Under the pieces are notes generated by a model. The model made no database searches and was not told where the DNA came from. It saw only the letters and a list, made by a program, of their open reading frames with translations. A stretch of 5,558 nt of DNA from CBDUXP01 sp965371225 [NCBI: uncultured bacterium] (GTDB lineage: Bacteria; Abyssobacteria; SURF-5; CBDUXP01): the NCBI GenBank assembly GCA_965371225.1, contig CBDUXP010000117.1, positions 1 to 5,558 on the forward strand, written 5' to 3'. Every line of letters starts with the position of its first letter. Positions within the stretch are counted from its first letter, which is position 1. Positions 1 to 5,558 of this stretch are shown piece after piece. The position numbers were made by a program, and so were the translations under genes.

Positions 1-390
1 GGGCAGGTGGCCCGGGAGGCGGGGGTGGGCGTCGAGACCATCCGCTTTTACGAGCGCCGGGGGCTCATCGAAGAGCCGCCCCGCCGCGAATCGGGCTACC
101 GCCAGTACCCGCCCGACGTGATCCCCCGCCTCGGGTTCATCCGGCGAGCCAAGACCTTGGGCTTCTCCCTCAAGGAGATCCTGGAACTGCTCTCGCTGCG
201 GGTCGATCCCGAATCCACCTGCGCGGACGTGAAGGCGCGGGCCGCGGACAAGATTGCGGGCATCGAGTCCAAGATCGCGGAGCTGGAACGGATGAAGGAC
301 GCGCTGGCCGACCTGCACCGGGCCTGCCGCGGCAAGGGGCCCACGAACGAGTGTCCCATCCTGGACTACCTGGACGCACCGGAGGGCTAG
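1..390 (+). CDS. merR: MerR-family soft-metal (mercury/lead-type) transcriptional regulator, 5'-truncated by the window edge
   Basis: The frame is open from base 1. Comparison from memory with Tn501 MerR suggests about 10 N-terminal residues are missing, so the in-frame GTG at 7 is probably not the true start. The visible part begins inside the winged-helix DNA-binding domain (helix-turn-helix, then ETIRFYERRGL and GYRQY), followed by LGFSLKEILELL and a long dimerisation helix. Numbering from GTG 7, Cys72, Cys107 and Cys116 are spaced 35 and 9 residues apart. That equals Cys82/117/126, the trigonal Hg(II) ligands of Tn501 MerR; CueR-type copper sensors lack the first cysteine. Lead sensors of the PbrR type share this spacing, so Pb(II) or Cd(II) cannot be excluded. 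Proteins of this family twist an overlong promoter spacer to activate transcription when metal binds. The gene is co-directional with, and two bases before, the next gene, so it probably heads the operon. Its promoter lies outside the window. Confidence 0.9.
   Translation, partial: GQVAREAGVGVETIRFYERRGLIEEPPRRESGYRQYPPDVIPRLGFIRRAKTLGFSLKEILELLSLRVDPESTCADVKARAADKIAGIESKIAELERMKDALADLHRACRGKGPTNECPILDYLDAPEG
381..386 (+). promoter_or_regulatory. Ribosome binding site that sets the start of the thioredoxin-MerC fusion
   Basis: GGAGGG ends six bases before ATG 393 and lies inside the last codons of the MerR-type gene. It favours ATG 393 over an in-frame upstream ATG at 351, which would overlap the regulator by 40 bases and add 14 residues unlike a thioredoxin-fold N-terminus. 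The overlap suggests translational coupling with the regulator. Confidence 0.75.
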
Positions 391-392
391 GC

Positions 393-1175
393 ATGCCGCG
401 CGTGGAACTGATCTTCGACCCCGACTGTCCAAACATCGCCGCCGCCCAGGCGAACTTGCGGCGCGCGTGCGAACTGGCCGGCGTACCCGCCGACTGGGTG
501 GAATGGGACCGGTCTACACCTGCGTGCCCGGACTACGCACAGCCCTACGGCTCCCCGACGATTCTGGTCGACGGCGCGGACGTGGACCCGGGCGCGCCCA
601 TGGACGGCGCGGCAAGCTGTCGCCTCTACCGCGACGCGCAGGGTCGCATCCTCCCCGCCCCGCCGCCCGAGCAGATCCTCGCCGCTTTGCGCGGGGCAAC
701 AGCGCACGGCGAACTCGTAGGAGCGCCTGGCATGCATACGACCGCGAATCCTCCGGCTCGAGGCCGATGGTTGAATTCTGCCGGCGCGCTGCCGGGCGTG
801 GGCGTCGCGTTGCTGCCGGCGTGTCCCGCCTGCTGGCCCGCGTACGCCGGGGTCCTGGGCGCCGCCGGATTCGGGCCGTTGTTGAACGTGCAGATGCAGT
901 TTCCCCTCACGGTCGCCCTGATGTTGCTCGCCCTCGGCACCCTCGCCTACCGGGCGCCTTCCCGGCGCGGGTACGGGCCCCTGGGTCTCGGCGTCGCCGC
1001 CACGGCCGTGCTGCTCGTCGCCAAGTTTTTGCTGCTGTCCATGCCGCTAACCTTTGCGGGCGGCGCCTTGCTGTTTGCCGCCGCGTTGTGGAACGCGTGG
1101 CCCCGCCGGGCGCAGGCCGACGAGGCGTGCCCCGCGTGCGCCACCACCGAGGCCGGTGCGAACGCGCCCGCCTAG
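393..1175 (+). CDS. Thioredoxin-like domain fused to MerC-like mercury transport membrane domain
   Basis: The protein has 260 residues. Residues 1-100 look like a small thioredoxin-fold domain: a beta strand VELIFDPDCPN, helix, then YGSPTILVDGADV with a probable cis-proline at Pro55. Cysteines are at 12, 26, 45 and 76; the active site is CPN, so it lacks a classical CxxC. A linker (about 101-128) leads to four predicted membrane helices at roughly 131-154, 170-187, 197-214 and 217-236. Helix 1 carries the CPAC pair (Cys144, Cys147), and the tail carries a second CPAC pair (Cys246, Cys249). Helix pattern, vicinal cysteines in the first helix and a cysteine-bearing tail resemble MerC, an inner-membrane Hg(II) importer of about 140 residues that needs no periplasmic MerP. 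The redox domain may pass metal from the transporter or re-reduce its thiols; that is inference. The MerC assignment is good by pattern but not proven by alignment. An internal start at 732 could yield the membrane half alone. Confidence 0.8.
   Translation: MPRVELIFDPDCPNIAAAQANLRRACELAGVPADWVEWDRSTPACPDYAQPYGSPTILVDGADVDPGAPMDGAASCRLYRDAQGRILPAPPPEQILAALRGATAHGELVGAPGMHTTANPPARGRWLNSAGALPGVGVALLPACPACWPAYAGVLGAAGFGPLLNVQMQFPLTVALMLLALGTLAYRAPSRRGYGPLGLGVAATAVLLVAKFLLLSMPLTFAGGALLFAAALWNAWPRRAQADEACPACATTEAGANAPA
720..734 (+). promoter_or_regulatory. Possible internal ribosome binding site and start codon at the domain junction
   Basis: GGAG at 720-723 is followed after eight bases by an in-frame ATG at 732 (Met114 of the fusion), exactly between the thioredoxin-like and MerC-like halves. 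Initiation here would produce a free 147-residue MerC-like protein, close to the usual MerC length. A TAG overlapping this site (718-720) is in another frame. The site could be a relic of two separate genes or an active second start; the sequence alone cannot tell. Confidence 0.4.
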
Positions 1176-1192: not shown

Positions 1193-1462
1193 ATGGCTGA
1201 CAAACGAACCATCGAAGTGTTCAGCGCGGGGTGCGCCGTGTGTGAAGACACGATCACGCTGGTGAACAGCGTGGCGTGCCCATCCTGCGACGTGTCCGTG
1301 CTCGATATGCAGGACCCGGCAGTCGCTGCGCGCGCGAAAGCGCTGGGCGTTCGCTCCGTGCCGGCCGTCGCCATCGACGGCGCGCTCGCGGACTGTTGCG
1401 CGGGCCGCGGGCCCGACGAGGCCGCCCTGCGCGCCGCAGGGCTCGGCCAACCGCTCACCTAG
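1193..1462 (+). CDS. Small thioredoxin/glutaredoxin-like protein with three cysteine pairs
   Basis: This is an 89-residue single-domain thioredoxin fold without a signal peptide, so probably cytoplasmic. The first strand IEVFSAG leads into an active-site pair Cys14-x-x-Cys17 at the start of helix 1. A second pair follows at Cys29/Cys32 (ACPSC). After LGVRSVPAVAIDG, with a likely cis-proline at Pro57, there is a vicinal pair Cys68-Cys69 in ADCCAGRG. I recall similar short proteins, usually named only as thioredoxin family, beside merR/merT-like genes. Six cysteines in 89 residues suggest soft-metal binding as well as disulfide exchange; it might take the place of MerP as a thiol carrier or reduce the neighbouring redox proteins. 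It starts 17 bases after the fusion gene and its stop overlaps the ribosome site of the next gene, which supports one operon. The exact substrate is unknown. Confidence 0.82.
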   Translation: MADKRTIEVFSAGCAVCEDTITLVNSVACPSCDVSVLDMQDPAVAARAKALGVRSVPAVAIDGALADCCAGRGPDEAALRAAGLGQPLT

Positions 1463-1474
1463 GGAGGCAGACTC

Positions 1475-2113
1475 ATGGCTACGCGAACCCGTCGTACCTG
1501 GTTGATCGCTCTTGGGGCCGTCGCCTCGGCAGTGGTGCTCGTCGTGGCGCTCGTGGCCTACGCCGGTTCCCGCACGCCGCAGGTGGATGGACTCATCTAC
1601 TTGGAAGACGGGGTGGACGCGTTCGCGGCCGAGTTCGACCGCGGGGTCGGCACGCCGCGGCTGGTGATGCTGCTGTCGCCCGCCTGACCCGTCTGCCGCC
1701 AGGGCGTGGCCCAGGTACAAGACTATTTGACTGCGCACGAGGACTTGGACATGCAACAACACTTCGTCTGGCTGCCCATGTTCCCCCGCATTGCGGAGAA
1801 CGCGGCGTTGCCGGACGCGGTCGCCGACATGGCTGCCGACGGGCGGGTGCACTACTGGGACGGTGCGCAGGCGCTTGGGCGAGCCATGCGCGGCATGGTG
1901 CCGCCCGACGTGACGTTCCCGGGGTTGGGCGACGTTCTGTGGGACGCGTTCCTCGTGTTTGACGCGGACGCCACATGGGACACGGCGCAGGACCACGTAC
2001 TCGCAGCGGGCGCCACCATCGTGGAAGATCAGGCGAAACTCTTTGCGATGTTCGACGAATTGCAGCATCCCGAAACGCAGGCACCGGCTGAGGCCGCGGC
2101 CTCGGCGGAATAG
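1475..2113 (+). CDS. Membrane-anchored thioredoxin-like selenoprotein candidate (Sec-Pro-Val-Cys active site, in-frame TGA at 1685-1687)
   Basis: ATG 1475 has a strong GGGAGG site (1462-1467) seven bases upstream. The frame runs 70 codons, meets one TGA, and continues in the same frame to TAG 2111-2113, giving 212 residues on readthrough. Residues 4-7 are basic (RTRR) and 9-30 form one hydrophobic helix, so the rest is probably periplasmic or exported. The strand PRLVMLLSPA (61-70) is followed by the TGA codon, then Pro72-Val73-Cys74 and a helix: the layout of a thioredoxin CxxC with the first cysteine coded by TGA. Downstream come VWLPM (98-102), RVHYWD (124-129) and WDAFLVFD (156-163), typical of a thioredoxin-like family I recall near mercury-resistance genes. 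The continued coding after TGA argues against a true stop. A SECIS-like hairpin follows. Expected role: disulfide/metal chemistry with a selenolate. Alternatives are a TGC-to-TGA nonsense mutation, a sequencing error, or two pieces with re-initiation at GTG 1706 or ATG 1751. Confidence 0.85.
1685..1687 (+). other. In-frame TGA predicted to encode selenocysteine (residue 71)
   Basis: The codon order around it is CCC GCC TGA CCC GTC TGC, read as Pro-Ala-Sec-Pro-Val-Cys. It is the only in-frame TGA inside any gene of the window, and it sits at the catalytic cysteine position of a thioredoxin motif. None of the seven genes uses TGA as its terminator (six TAG, one TAA). Reassignment of TGA to tryptophan is unlikely, because tryptophan is coded by TGG throughout and tryptophan has no place in this motif. 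Confidence 0.82.
1698..1716 (+). promoter_or_regulatory. Candidate bacterial SECIS hairpin
   Basis: The RNA can fold with G1698-U1716, C1699-G1715, C1700-G1714, an A1701/A1713 mismatch, then G1702-C1712, G1703-C1711, G1704-C1710 and C1705-G1709, closing a GUG loop at 1706-1708. The loop begins 18 bases after the TGA. Known bacterial SECIS elements lie in the coding region just after the UGA, about 16 to 37 bases from the apical loop, with a G in the first two loop positions; both conditions hold. They recruit SelB with Sec-tRNA. A competing hairpin (1695-1699 with 1706-1710, loop CAGGGC) places its loop only 12 bases from the TGA. GC-rich DNA folds easily, so this is supportive and not conclusive. 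Confidence 0.6.
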
Positions 2114-2146: not shown

Positions 2147-2533
2147 ATGGCTACGATGACCGAATCAACCACGGACAACGCCCAACAAGATCTGGCGGGT
2201 AGCCGGATCAACCTTGCGAAATATTGGGGCACCCCCATCGCCATGTGGGTGCTCGGCGGCGTCTGGCACGCGGCCACACCGGTGCTGTGGCCGATCAGTT
2301 TTCTGTGGATCGGCGCCGCGTGTTCGGCAAACGCCCTCCGCTGCCACCGCGTGCACTGCACGATCATGGGCCCGGCGTTCCTGGTGCTGGCGCTCGTGTC
2401 GCTGCTGAACGCCGTCGGCGTGGTCGCGTTGTCCTGGTCCCTGCTCGGGACCATAGCTGCGGCCACGGTCCTGATCGCCTATCTGCCCGAGTTCGCGGGC
2501 CTGAAGTACTTCGGGCGCACACCCGCAAGCTAG
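2147..2533 (+). CDS. Small cysteine-containing membrane protein of the metal operon, function unknown
   Basis: The protein has 128 residues; ATG 2147 has AGGAG (2135-2139) seven bases upstream. After a polar N-terminus (1-25) there are three or four hydrophobic segments, roughly 28-47, 48-60, 73-96 and 97-114. Between the second and third is a conserved-looking motif with Cys59, Cys66 and Cys71 (CSANALRC then HRVHC) followed by TIMGPAFLVLA. I recall unnamed membrane proteins with a similar C-x-x-N-x-x-R-C-x-R-x-H-C-x-x-x-GP pattern close to merR-like genes, but know no tested function. Three cysteines and a histidine at a membrane boundary suggest soft-metal binding or transport, or a redox partner for the preceding selenoprotein-like gene, whose stop lies 33 bases upstream. 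It has none of the MerT or MerF vicinal cysteine pairs in its first helix, so I do not assign it to those families. Confidence 0.75.
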   Translation: MATMTESTTDNAQQDLAGSRINLAKYWGTPIAMWVLGGVWHAATPVLWPISFLWIGAACSANALRCHRVHCTIMGPAFLVLALVSLLNAVGVVALSWSLLGTIAAATVLIAYLPEFAGLKYFGRTPAS

Positions 2534-2578: not shown

Positions 2579-5074
2579 ATGCCGTCCGTAGACACCCACA
2601 CCCGCCTCGTCGTCGAGGGCATGACCTGCCAGCACTGCGTCGGGCGCGTCACGGACGCGCTCGAAGCGATGCCCCACGTGCGCGCCGCCGCGGTGGACTT
2701 GGAGGCCGGCACCGCCGACGTGACGGTGGCGGAAGCGGGCGCAAGCACAGCCGAGTTGGTCGCGGCCGTCACCGCAGCGGGGTACGCGGCGCGGGCTGCG
2801 GAGGCGGGCGATGGACGCGTCGGCCCTGCAACGGATGCCCCACTCGATGCGCCCGAACCGGACGCGCGCCACGGGGCCACGGCAGAACTCACGTTCGCCA
2901 TCGCGGGCATGACGTGCGCCAACTGCGCGAACACGATCGAGAAGGTCTTGCACCGGCAAGCGGGGGTGGCGGCCGCAAACGTGAACTTCGCGGCGGAGCG
3001 GGGTTGGGTCGAGTACGACGCGGCGACGCTGGACGAGCCGGCCATCTTCCGGGCCGTGGCCGAGGCCGGCTACCACGCCAGCTCCACGCGCACGCGGCGC
3101 GACCGGGGAGCGGACGCCCGCCGGGAATTGTTGTGGCTCGGGTGGGCCGTCCTGGGCGTGCTGCTCGTGGTGGGCCTGCACCGCTTCGGCGGCGCCGCCG
3201 GGATCGCAAACCTGCTGAACGGCGTAGGCGTCGCGTGGATGCGCCCGGCGCACGCGATCATGGCCGTCGCCCTCGTGATTCAAGCGACGGCCGGATTCAC
3301 GTTCTACCGGGGGGCGTACCACGCGCTCGCCAACCGGGCAGCGAGCATGGACGTGCTCGTGAGTCTCGGCATCACGGCGGCGACGGGATACAGCATGGCC
3401 GTGGTACTTGCGCCGGCGCTGTTCGCGGGCGAGACGCTCTTCTTCCACACGGCGGTGGAATTGATCGCGTTTATCCGCTTCGGCAAATACCTGGAAGCCC
3501 GCGTGAAGGGCCGGGCCAACGCCATGCTGCGCGACCTGCTGGAGGGGCAGACGGACCGGGCGACCCTGGTGGAGGGCGACCGCGAACGCGCGGTGGCTGC
3601 GTCGGAGTTGCAACCCGGCCAGGTGGTGCGGGTCCGGCCCGGTGAGCAGGTGCCCGTGGACGGCGTCATTCGCGACGGCGAAGGCGAAGTGGATGAAGCG
3701 CTCCTGACGGGCGAGCCGCTGCCCGTGGTCAAGGCGCCCGGCGACGCGGTCATGGGCGGGTCGATCAACCGCGCGGGGGTGCTGCTGGTAGAAGTGACCG
3801 GCGTCGGCCAGGAGACCGTGCTCGCGCGCGTGATCCAGATGGTGGAAGCCGCGCAGGGCGACAAGGCCCCCATCCAGCGGTACGCCGACCGCGTGTCCAA
3901 CTATTTCGTTCCCGCCGTGGTCGCGCTGGCGGCGTGTACGTTCGCCGGCCACCTGCTCGCAGCGGCCGGGTTAGTGCCGGCCCTGTCCGCAGCGATCGCC
4001 GTCCTCGTGGTGGCGTGTCCCTGCGCCCTCGGGCTCGCGACCCCCACCGCCATTGTGGTCGGCAGCGGCATCGGCCTGCGCCGCGGCATCCTGGTGAAGC
4101 GCGCGTCGGCGTTGGAGGGCGTGGCGCGCCTGGAACGCATCATGCTCGACAAGACGGGCACCATCACGGAAGGACGCCCCGACGTAGTCGGGATCACCCC
4201 GCTCGCGGATGACGCGTCCGCCGACTCCATCCTGGCGCTCGCGGCGCCGGTGGAGGCCGGCTCGGTGCATCCGTTAGCGCAAGCCGTCGTGCGCTACGCG
4301 CGCGCCCGCGGCGGCGAGCCGCAACCCGCCGCCGACATCGTGGAACGCGCGGGCCATGGCGTGCGCGGCACGGTGGACGGGGTGCCGGTGTGGGTGGGCA
4401 ACCGGCGACTGCTGGACCACGCCGGCGTGGACACGAACGGGATGGACGGCGCGGGCCCGCCCACTGCCGACGCGAGCGAAACGCTGCTCTACGTGGCCAC
4501 CCGAGCGGGCGTGCAGGGGGTGATTCGCCTGGCCGACAGGATCAAGGGGGATGCCGCCGCGGCCGTGGACGGCTTACACCGGGAAGGGATCACGCTGGTC
4601 ATGCTGACGGGCGACGCCGAAGCCGCGGCTGAGCGGGTCGCCGCCGAGGTGGGCGTGGACGAGGTGCGGGCGCGGCTGTTGCCGGAAGACAAGATCGCCG
4701 CGGTACGGGCCGAGCAGGCGGCGGGGTACACGGTGGGCATGGTGGGCGACGGGATCAACGACGCGCCGGCGCTGGCCCAGGCGGACATCGGCTTGGCCAT
4801 CGGCGCGGGGGCGGACGCGGCGAAAGAAGCCGGCGACATCGTGCTGGTGCGCGGGGACCTGGGCGACGTGGTGCGCGCGGTGCGGCTGGGCAAGGCCACG
4901 TTGCGCACCGTCAAGCAGAATCTCGGTTGGGCGGTGCTGTACAACGTGGGCGCGCTGCCGCTGGCGGCGGTGGGGCTGTTGCCGCCGGCGTGGGCGGGGA
5001 TGGCGATGGCGCTCTCCTCCGTGTCCGTGGTTGCGAACTCCCTGCGCCTGCGCCGCGTGGACGCGCGTCTGTAG
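2579..5074 (+). CDS. copA: P1B-type heavy-metal translocating ATPase, Cu(I)/Ag(I) exporter type (CopA-like)
   Basis: This is a full-length enzyme of 831 residues. Two N-terminal heavy-metal-associated domains carry MTCQHC (Cys17, Cys20) and MTCANC (Cys113, Cys116). Membrane helices begin near 184. The actuator domain has LLTGEP (TGE 377-379), and the transport helix holds Cys480-Pro-Cys482. Asp524 in DKTGT is the phosphorylation site; the nucleotide domain has His564-Pro565, here in SVHP instead of the common SEHP; TGD at 677-679 and GDGIND (723-728) complete the P-domain. Asn781 and Tyr788-Asn789 in the seventh helix and M810-x-x-S813-S814 in the eighth match the Cu(I)/Ag(I) P1B-1 group, not Zn/Cd/Pb pumps. 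It would export cytosolic monovalent soft metal using ATP. ATG 2579 is the first ATG after the previous stop and has only a weak site (GCGGA, eight bases away). The 45-base gap could hold its own control element, but none is clear. A role in mercury export is possible only as inference. Confidence 0.93.
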   Translation: MPSVDTHTRLVVEGMTCQHCVGRVTDALEAMPHVRAAAVDLEAGTADVTVAEAGASTAELVAAVTAAGYAARAAEAGDGRVGPATDAPLDAPEPDARHGATAELTFAIAGMTCANCANTIEKVLHRQAGVAAANVNFAAERGWVEYDAATLDEPAIFRAVAEAGYHASSTRTRRDRGADARRELLWLGWAVLGVLLVVGLHRFGGAAGIANLLNGVGVAWMRPAHAIMAVALVIQATAGFTFYRGAYHALANRAASMDVLVSLGITAATGYSMAVVLAPALFAGETLFFHTAVELIAFIRFGKYLEARVKGRANAMLRDLLEGQTDRATLVEGDRERAVAASELQPGQVVRVRPGEQVPVDGVIRDGEGEVDEALLTGEPLPVVKAPGDAVMGGSINRAGVLLVEVTGVGQETVLARVIQMVEAAQGDKAPIQRYADRVSNYFVPAVVALAACTFAGHLLAAAGLVPALSAAIAVLVVACPCALGLATPTAIVVGSGIGLRRGILVKRASALEGVARLERIMLDKTGTITEGRPDVVGITPLADDASADSILALAAPVEAGSVHPLAQAVVRYARARGGEPQPAADIVERAGHGVRGTVDGVPVWVGNRRLLDHAGVDTNGMDGAGPPTADASETLLYVATRAGVQGVIRLADRIKGDAAAAVDGLHREGITLVMLTGDAEAAAERVAAEVGVDEVRARLLPEDKIAAVRAEQAAGYTVGMVGDGINDAPALAQADIGLAIGAGADAAKEAGDIVLVRGDLGDVVRAVRLGKATLRTVKQNLGWAVLYNVGALPLAAVGLLPPAWAGMAMALSSVSVVANSLRLRRVDARL

Positions 5075-5077
5075 GCG

Positions 5078-5558
5078 TTACCCGGCGTCAGACGGTTCGC
5101 TGTCGCCTTCGGCGGAGCGGTCCAGGTCCACCATTTTTCCCCGGCCCAGATACGGCGTGGTGGCGATGCTGCGCATGTGATCCAGCTTGCCGAGCAGTTC
5201 CGAGATGCGCTCGCCCCCCTTACAGATCGATTCAATCTGGTGATAGAACTCGTGCGACTCGTCCATCACCGACAGGAGATAATCGGCGTACCCGACGATG
5301 GCCTGCAGCGGATTGTTGATCTCATGCTTGAGGGTGACGGTCATCTCCCCGATGGCCGCCATGCGTTCGGCCTCGATCAATTTCGCCTGCGTCGTCGCCA
5401 GCTCGTCCCACAGCCCCTTCGCGCGCAGGCTCGAGCGCACCCGGGCCAGGAAGACCCGCAGGTCGTAGGGCCGGCTCACGAAATCGTCCGCCCCCGCTTC
5501 GAAGCCGCGCTCCACGCTCTCCACGTCCTCGAGCGCCGTCAGCAGGATGATGGGCACG
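5078..5558 (-). CDS. Response-regulator receiver plus HisKA domain protein, 5'-truncated by the window edge
   Basis: The gene reads leftward from beyond base 5558 to TAA (5080-5078), giving the last 159 residues. The first ~45 are the C-terminal half of a receiver domain: PIILLTALED with the conserved Thr7, GADDFVSRPYD, and the last helix. The conserved receiver lysine is replaced by Arg29 (SRP for the usual SKP); the phospho-accepting aspartate would lie upstream, outside the window. A helical linker (50-67) leads to a HisKA dimerisation domain with H-box KHEINNPLQ (His78) and a second helix (103-127). The protein then ends after PYLGRGKMVDL with no HATPase domain, so it cannot be a complete kinase by itself. 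I recall similar receiver-HisKA proteins without ATPase in several phyla, so the short end may be normal. It may act as a phosphotransfer or scaffold protein. It converges on the ATPase gene with only three bases between, and probably belongs to another transcription unit. Confidence 0.82.
   Translation of the reverse strand, partial: VPIILLTALEDVESVERGFEAGADDFVSRPYDLRVFLARVRSSLRAKGLWDELATTQAKLIEAERMAAIGEMTVTLKHEINNPLQAIVGYADYLLSVMDESHEFYHQIESICKGGERISELLGKLDHMRSIATTPYLGRGKMVDLDRSAEGDSEPSDAG

Follow-up and report, generated by a model that had tools for sequence, protein, structure and literature searches.

A candidate membrane-anchored, thioredoxin-like selenoprotein gene beside a mercury-type regulator in an uncultured bacterium

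The in-frame TGA and its counterpart in relatives

The stretch of DNA analysed here (5,558 nucleotides, hereafter the window) contains a frame that opens at ATG 1475, runs for 70 codons to TGA 1685-1687 and continues for another 141 codons to TAG 2111-2113 (Table 1). This TGA is the sole interruption of the frame, and it raises the question of whether it is a stop or a codon for selenocysteine (Sec), and what a selenoprotein might do in such a place. The initial annotation had proposed a likely selenoprotein within a mercury-type operon, pointing to an identical frame before and after the TGA (70 and 141 codons) and to a joint reading SPA-(TGA)-PVC. Both observations were borne out: when TGA is read as Sec, the product has 212 residues and the joint LLSPA-U-PVC, and the downstream motifs listed at that time (VWLPM, RVHYWD and WDAFLVFD) are all found in it. 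G+C at codon positions 1, 2 and 3 was 0.729, 0.514 and 0.843 before the TGA and 0.745, 0.433 and 0.816 after it; thus, both halves look coding, with a similar codon-position composition on either side. The openness of the second half is by itself weak evidence, because a stop-free run of 141 codons was also obtained in 2.7% of base shuffles.

Table 1. Features of the window and the evidence on which each assignment is based
Feature	Position	Strand	Basis
Hg(II)-type regulator of the MerR family, truncated at its 5' end by the window	1..390	+	NCBIfam MerR 132.1 bits (under cut-off 150.85)
DF-like then MerC-like membrane domain, one frame	393..1175	+	NF049942 46.1 bits (cut-off 70); PF03203 19.7 (cut-off 27.6); both below
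Small CxxC thioredoxin-like protein	1193..1462	+	PF13192 32.1 bits, over cut-off
Predicted selenoprotein gene, 212-aa membrane-anchored thioredoxin-like UxxC protein	1475..2113	+	82 further distinct family genes; predicted thioredoxin fold
Hydrophobic helix at the N-terminus (residues 4-31), probably a membrane anchor	1484..1567	+	Structure model; hydropathy
TGA, predicted selenocysteine codon (residue 71)	1685..1687	+	Aligned codon TGA in 73/83 and Cys in 8/83 distinct genes
Predicted SECIS-like hairpin	1698..1716	+	Stem 1698-1700/1714-1716 and 1702-1705/1709-1712, loop GTG 1706-1708
128-aa hydrophobic, probably membrane protein	2147..2533	+	Matches no Pfam or NCBIfam family
Heavy-metal P-type ATPase, CopA-like, two HMA domains	2579..5074	+	TIGR01525 and TIGR01511 over cut-off

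Relatives were not easily found. The window protein had no match better than E 0.02 in Pfam or NCBIfam and none better than E 0.35 in PDB, and no relative was obtained by a scan of genome contigs with this protein alone, by tblastn of plasmids, or by scans of viral contigs with patterns steered by alignments that included provisional rows. A pattern-steered scan of genome contigs identified 22 loci (E 1e-17 to 1e-6); its patterns derived from the window protein and three provisional rows, an alignment that served for pattern choice only, and all family alignments from A6 on contain real sequences only. These loci lay in records labelled Chloroflexi, Acidobacteriota or its members, Armatimonadetes, Latescibacterota, Gemmatimonadetes, Calditrichia and Micromonosporaceae, and the aligned codon was TGA in 20 of them, TGC in L011 and TGG in L018. 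Profile searches with real sequences detected the family in 38 of 297 genomes of the phylum of G002 (Acidobacteriota), 8 of 301 of that of G001 (Chloroflexi), 14 of 16 of that of G012 (a 'Gemmatimonadetes' grouping with Latescibacterota), 7 of 296 of that of G009 (a Micromonosporaceae record) and 7 of 291 of that of G007 (an Armatimonadetes record), where absence from a given genome is uncertain since only about 10 candidates per genome were scored in most genomes.

It is these relatives, rather than the openness of the frame, that settle the reality of the TGA gene. Among 83 distinct genes including that of the window (fetched loci covering the codon; five partial matches missing it were set aside), the aligned codon was TGA in 73, TGC in 6, TGT in 2, TGG (Trp) in 1 and ACT (Thr) in 1, and TAA or TAG in none. 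The initial annotation had suggested examining homologues for Cys or TGA at residue 71, and with one or the other present in 81 of the 83 distinct genes its selenoprotein reading is supported. A recent nonsense mutation or a sequencing error would explain a single stop in an otherwise open frame, but such damage is very unlikely to have struck the same codon in 72 further distinct genes across several phyla, each time as TGA and never as TAA or TAG, and the motifs after the TGA are conserved. Division into two genes, the second starting from GTG 1706, is what a mechanical ORF list gives. It is more improbable still, because the conserved SPT-U-xx-C motif runs across the TGA, the Cys forms are uninterrupted, and the structure model shows a single domain, residue 71 lying directly before helix 72-87. 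Finally, the source organism might read TGA as sense (Trp or Gly), as the other genes of the window end in TAG rather than TGA and one relative has TGG at this position. The five other genes are, however, uninterrupted frames with no internal TGA and thus offer no pointer to reassignment within the window; with Cys in 8 of the 83 genes and selA in many relatives, this explanation is scarcely credible and the least likely of the three. On these comparisons, we consider it highly probable that 1475-2113 encodes a selenoprotein.

Sec and Cys appear to have been exchanged repeatedly. On a 53-row tree, at least seven exchanges were needed (the Cys label changes 7 times, and the starred branches force 7); alignment A7 took in the window together with 52 stretches out of a list of 53, from which L059 was omitted. 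The window grouped with 17 other Sec rows (99/94), and its exact place is unsure because it lies on a long branch (1.75). UxxC was present in 71 of the 73 TGA genes, and the other two, L049 and L059, had a second TGA and hence UxxU. In both of the latter (from G270 and G134, respectively) the motif reads SPT-U-PK-U. At L018 (7842-8483, Calditrichia), Trp and Ser replace both active-site residues; the genome nonetheless has selA and selB over cut-off.

The family has motifs of its own, namely SPT-U and WD, together with a Trp further on that is conserved. When 23 members were compared with curated models, the best match was E 0.0051 in NCBIfam and E 0.015 in Pfam, and no description of the family was present among the literature matches listed. 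Thus, these sequences apparently represent a selenoprotein family without a curated model, and what looks like a family spanning several phyla would have been missed by such models. A plain gene finder would split its genes at the TGA.

Selenocysteine machinery and a predicted hairpin 3' of the TGA

We examined the Sec machinery of the relatives. In the first 21 family-bearing genomes, selA was over cut-off in 19 and selB in 16, and tRNA-Sec exceeded the gathering score in 18 genomes and reached at least 65 bits in 17. In G009, which carries the Cys form L011, all three were under cut-off or absent. More widely, selA was detected in 59 of 64 genomes with the TGA form (18/19, 31/35 and 10/10) and in 66 of 105 family-free genomes (28/37 and 38/68), a difference with a Fisher p of 1.2e-5 overall and 0.006 for the phyla of G009 and G007 alone (10/10 versus 38/68), both values being indicative only because the genomes are related and their completeness is unstated. 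It should be noted that selA is common in these phyla regardless of the family, as the 66 family-free genomes show, that it was also present in seven Cys-form genomes, and that it was not found in 5 of the 64 TGA-form genomes.

The loop of the predicted hairpin begins 19 nt after the TGA, and the best hairpins after the TGA in the family have loops that start 17-25 nt downstream. Of the 41 TGA genes, 40 had G among the two bases that open the loop, as did 6 of the 8 others. Relative to synonymous recoding, the mean stability z was -1.45 for the 41 TGA genes and -0.62 for the 8 others, and p 0.05 was reached by 15 and 1 of them, respectively. The window hairpin itself had z -1.76 (p 0.0475), but stability is weak evidence, since the verified fdhF element of Escherichia coli scored only z -0.17 in the same test. 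Covariation provided stronger evidence than stability. In one set of 13 other members (16 loci minus 3 near-copies), 5 of 8 pairs were changed on both sides, with a covariation value of 0.433, whereas shuffles averaged 0.231 and sliding gave no value above 0.186; further pair types were not in excess in this set (447 of 500 shuffles as high). In another set of 18 other members (18 of 20 loci, L002 and L043 dropped), the value was 0.237 versus 0.070 for shuffles and at most 0.115 when slid; 2 of 6 pairs were changed on both sides, which is no excess (308 of 500 shuffles as high). Both sets were chosen by hairpin register, a choice that inflates the percentage paired, and 8 of the 41 TGA genes, including that of the window, belong to neither, so that the covariation stems from other members. 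By comparison with these relatives, SelB and tRNA-Sec would insert Sec at UGA 1685-1687, aided by the hairpin just 3' of it.

Predicted fold and mercury-type setting

An AlphaFold2 model based on 53 real rows (pLDDT 87.1, pTM 0.77) consists of a helix at residues 4-31 followed by a thioredoxin-like domain in which strand 62-67 leads to residue 71 and helix 72-87. Foldseek and VIA-align matched it to TlpA/ResA/DsbE-type thioredoxins, DipZ, peroxiredoxins and GPX4 (best VIA-align Z 12.2). The prediction is thus a single hydrophobic helix preceding a thioredoxin fold, with UxxC at the start of the helix that comes after the central strand. The predicted N-terminal helix, the hydropathy maximum of the product (2.87 at residues 10-28) and its basic N-terminus suggest a membrane-anchored domain that faces outside the cytoplasm.

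The gene lies in an apparent operon that would be under the control of the Hg(II)-type MerR and would also contain the DF/MerC-like protein, the small CxxC thioredoxin and a soft-metal ATPase. The best PDB match of the MerR was 4ua1; three cysteines line up gap-free between the two and correspond to the Hg ligands of Hg-MerR. The 'mercury-type operon' of the initial annotation stood in part: the Hg-type regulator and the MerT linkage in relatives (see below) favor it, whereas neither MerA nor MerP was present among the six window genes scanned against Pfam and NCBIfam (the window ends being open), the MerC match is under its cut-off and the ATPase scores as copper-translocating. The hydrophobic protein encoded between the selenoprotein and the ATPase contains a CHRVHC stretch. 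A tRNA-Thr reported by ARAGORN at 2245-2342 was taken as probably false because a coding frame covers the site and Rfam gave no hit. On the minus strand, 5078-5557 holds a converging frame that by eye resembles a response-regulator/histidine-kinase fragment.

Relatives provide a more direct tie to mercury. In 59 family-bearing genomes, 16 matches to MerT (PF02411) were over cut-off, and 10 of them shared contig and strand with a family gene and lay no more than about 4.1 kb from it (G092, G006, G063, G004, G029, G239, G047, G107, G009 and G007), compared with a chance expectation of about 0.03 of 16 by a hand estimate. Two of four weaker MerT matches were also within this distance of a family gene (G173 and, on the other strand, G120). 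The gene order of G029 (MerR, DF, MerT, family gene) resembles that of the window. In G107, MerT and a Cys form of the family are fused in one frame of 343 residues (L086, 7110-8141). After this frame come a MerP-like gene with a weak score (20.8 bits against a cut-off of 110) and a MerA (502.6 versus a cut-off of 454.45). Mer-type tblastn matches, some of them made solely by generic reductase or ArsR-type query sequences, occurred in 12 of 40 further neighbourhoods, whereas 40 control stretches taken from those genomes had none (p 1.9e-4). Such matches were absent from the other 28 neighbourhoods, and many family members, for example L014, lie elsewhere than in mer settings. Thus, the link to mercury operons holds over part of the family's range, and mercury does not account for the family as a whole. 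For the window, we put the probability of a selenoprotein and a soft-metal setting together at roughly four in five.

Possible role and relation to known systems

Judging from its neighbours and relatives, the selenoprotein of the window operon probably has mercury or a comparable soft metal as its target. The product would expose a Sec-x-x-Cys pair on its thioredoxin fold outside the cytoplasm, beyond the membrane helix, and would most likely work for a MerT/MerC-type transporter on the outer side of the membrane. Its exact step could be either of two, and the balance between them appears near even. Selenolate has a very high affinity for mercury, and as a carrier the selenolate/thiol pair may capture Hg(II) or a like metal and hand it over as MerP does via CxxC; this role is favored by the MerT fusion, which mirrors MerT-MerP fusions (NF033556). 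As a reductase, it may instead keep the cysteines of the transporter reduced, a role favored by the predicted thioredoxin fold.

A stricter version of the latter, in which the protein is purely a thiol-disulfide reductase for the transporter, DF or other exported proteins and never carries metal, is a serious contender at somewhat less than even odds. Matches of the predicted fold to TlpA/ResA/DsbE-type reductases, the UxxC pair, the many members outside mer settings and a DsbD-type gene adjoining the family gene in G496 are consistent with it. On the other hand, mercury-selenol binding is very tight, so that selenol-bound mercury would poison a redox selenoenzyme, and the MerT linkage and fusion, which resemble MerT-MerP fusions, speak against it. 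DsbD/CcdA as an electron donor was rejected, G496 being the only case of adjacency among 68 DsbD_TM matches, which also counts against a purely reducing role. ORFs of L117 and L119 that looked CcdA-like by eye had no match in Pfam, and that reading is not claimed. More specifically, the family could be a Sec-based counterpart of MerP in which a thioredoxin fold has been co-opted to carry Hg(II) or soft metal outside the cytoplasm to MerT/MerC-type importers, with a two-Sec UxxU subgroup; we regard this as a tentative proposal, with the odds somewhat against it.

As with MerP and the MerT-MerP fusions, some relatives have the family domain next to MerT or joined to it in one frame, and the UxxC or CxxC pair is on a small domain. 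In contrast with MerP, which has an HMA fold, its predicted fold is that of thioredoxin and its metal binding is putative, and L086 has a weak MerP-like gene as well as the Cys form of the family. A 2026 review (PMC13188914) gives 119 prokaryotic selenoprotein families or subfamilies, and the thioredoxin-fold UxxC selenoproteins in its Table 1 include Trx, DsbA-, DsbG- and TlpA/redoxin-like proteins and SaoT. The present family shares with these table entries the (here predicted) thioredoxin fold and Sec as the first residue of the CxxC pair. It differs from them in its own SPT-U, WD and later Trp, and in that several of those entries have NCBIfam or Pfam models whereas the 23 members match none well. 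Mercury-related selenoproteins named in the same review are a Sec-containing MerT, the UxxU metal-binding protein NF041115 and SaoL, and MerT/CopZ_Se is an existing NCBIfam model (NF045683); these resemble the family in having Sec in mercury or organometal proteins, and they differ in fold and family. Sec in mercury proteins is already known, and the family would add a thioredoxin-like case. OS_HP1, a hypothetical selenoprotein named in PMC2398784, is alike in having UxxC and no domain name; likened by its description only, it may be the same family.

Through a protein fused to MerT in one genome, selenium is tied to mercury resistance, which makes it testable whether certain bacteria employ biological selenium to catch mercury. 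If true, this would reverse the usual view of selenoproteins as the victims of mercury. A further observation concerns the Chloroflexi locus L002, where a TlpA/redoxin-like frame upstream of the family gene (6690-7262) contains an in-frame TGA (SFPG-U-PTC) in a cluster that also has an ArsR-like regulator and a GDCCVxC protein; this frame is a second selenoprotein candidate.
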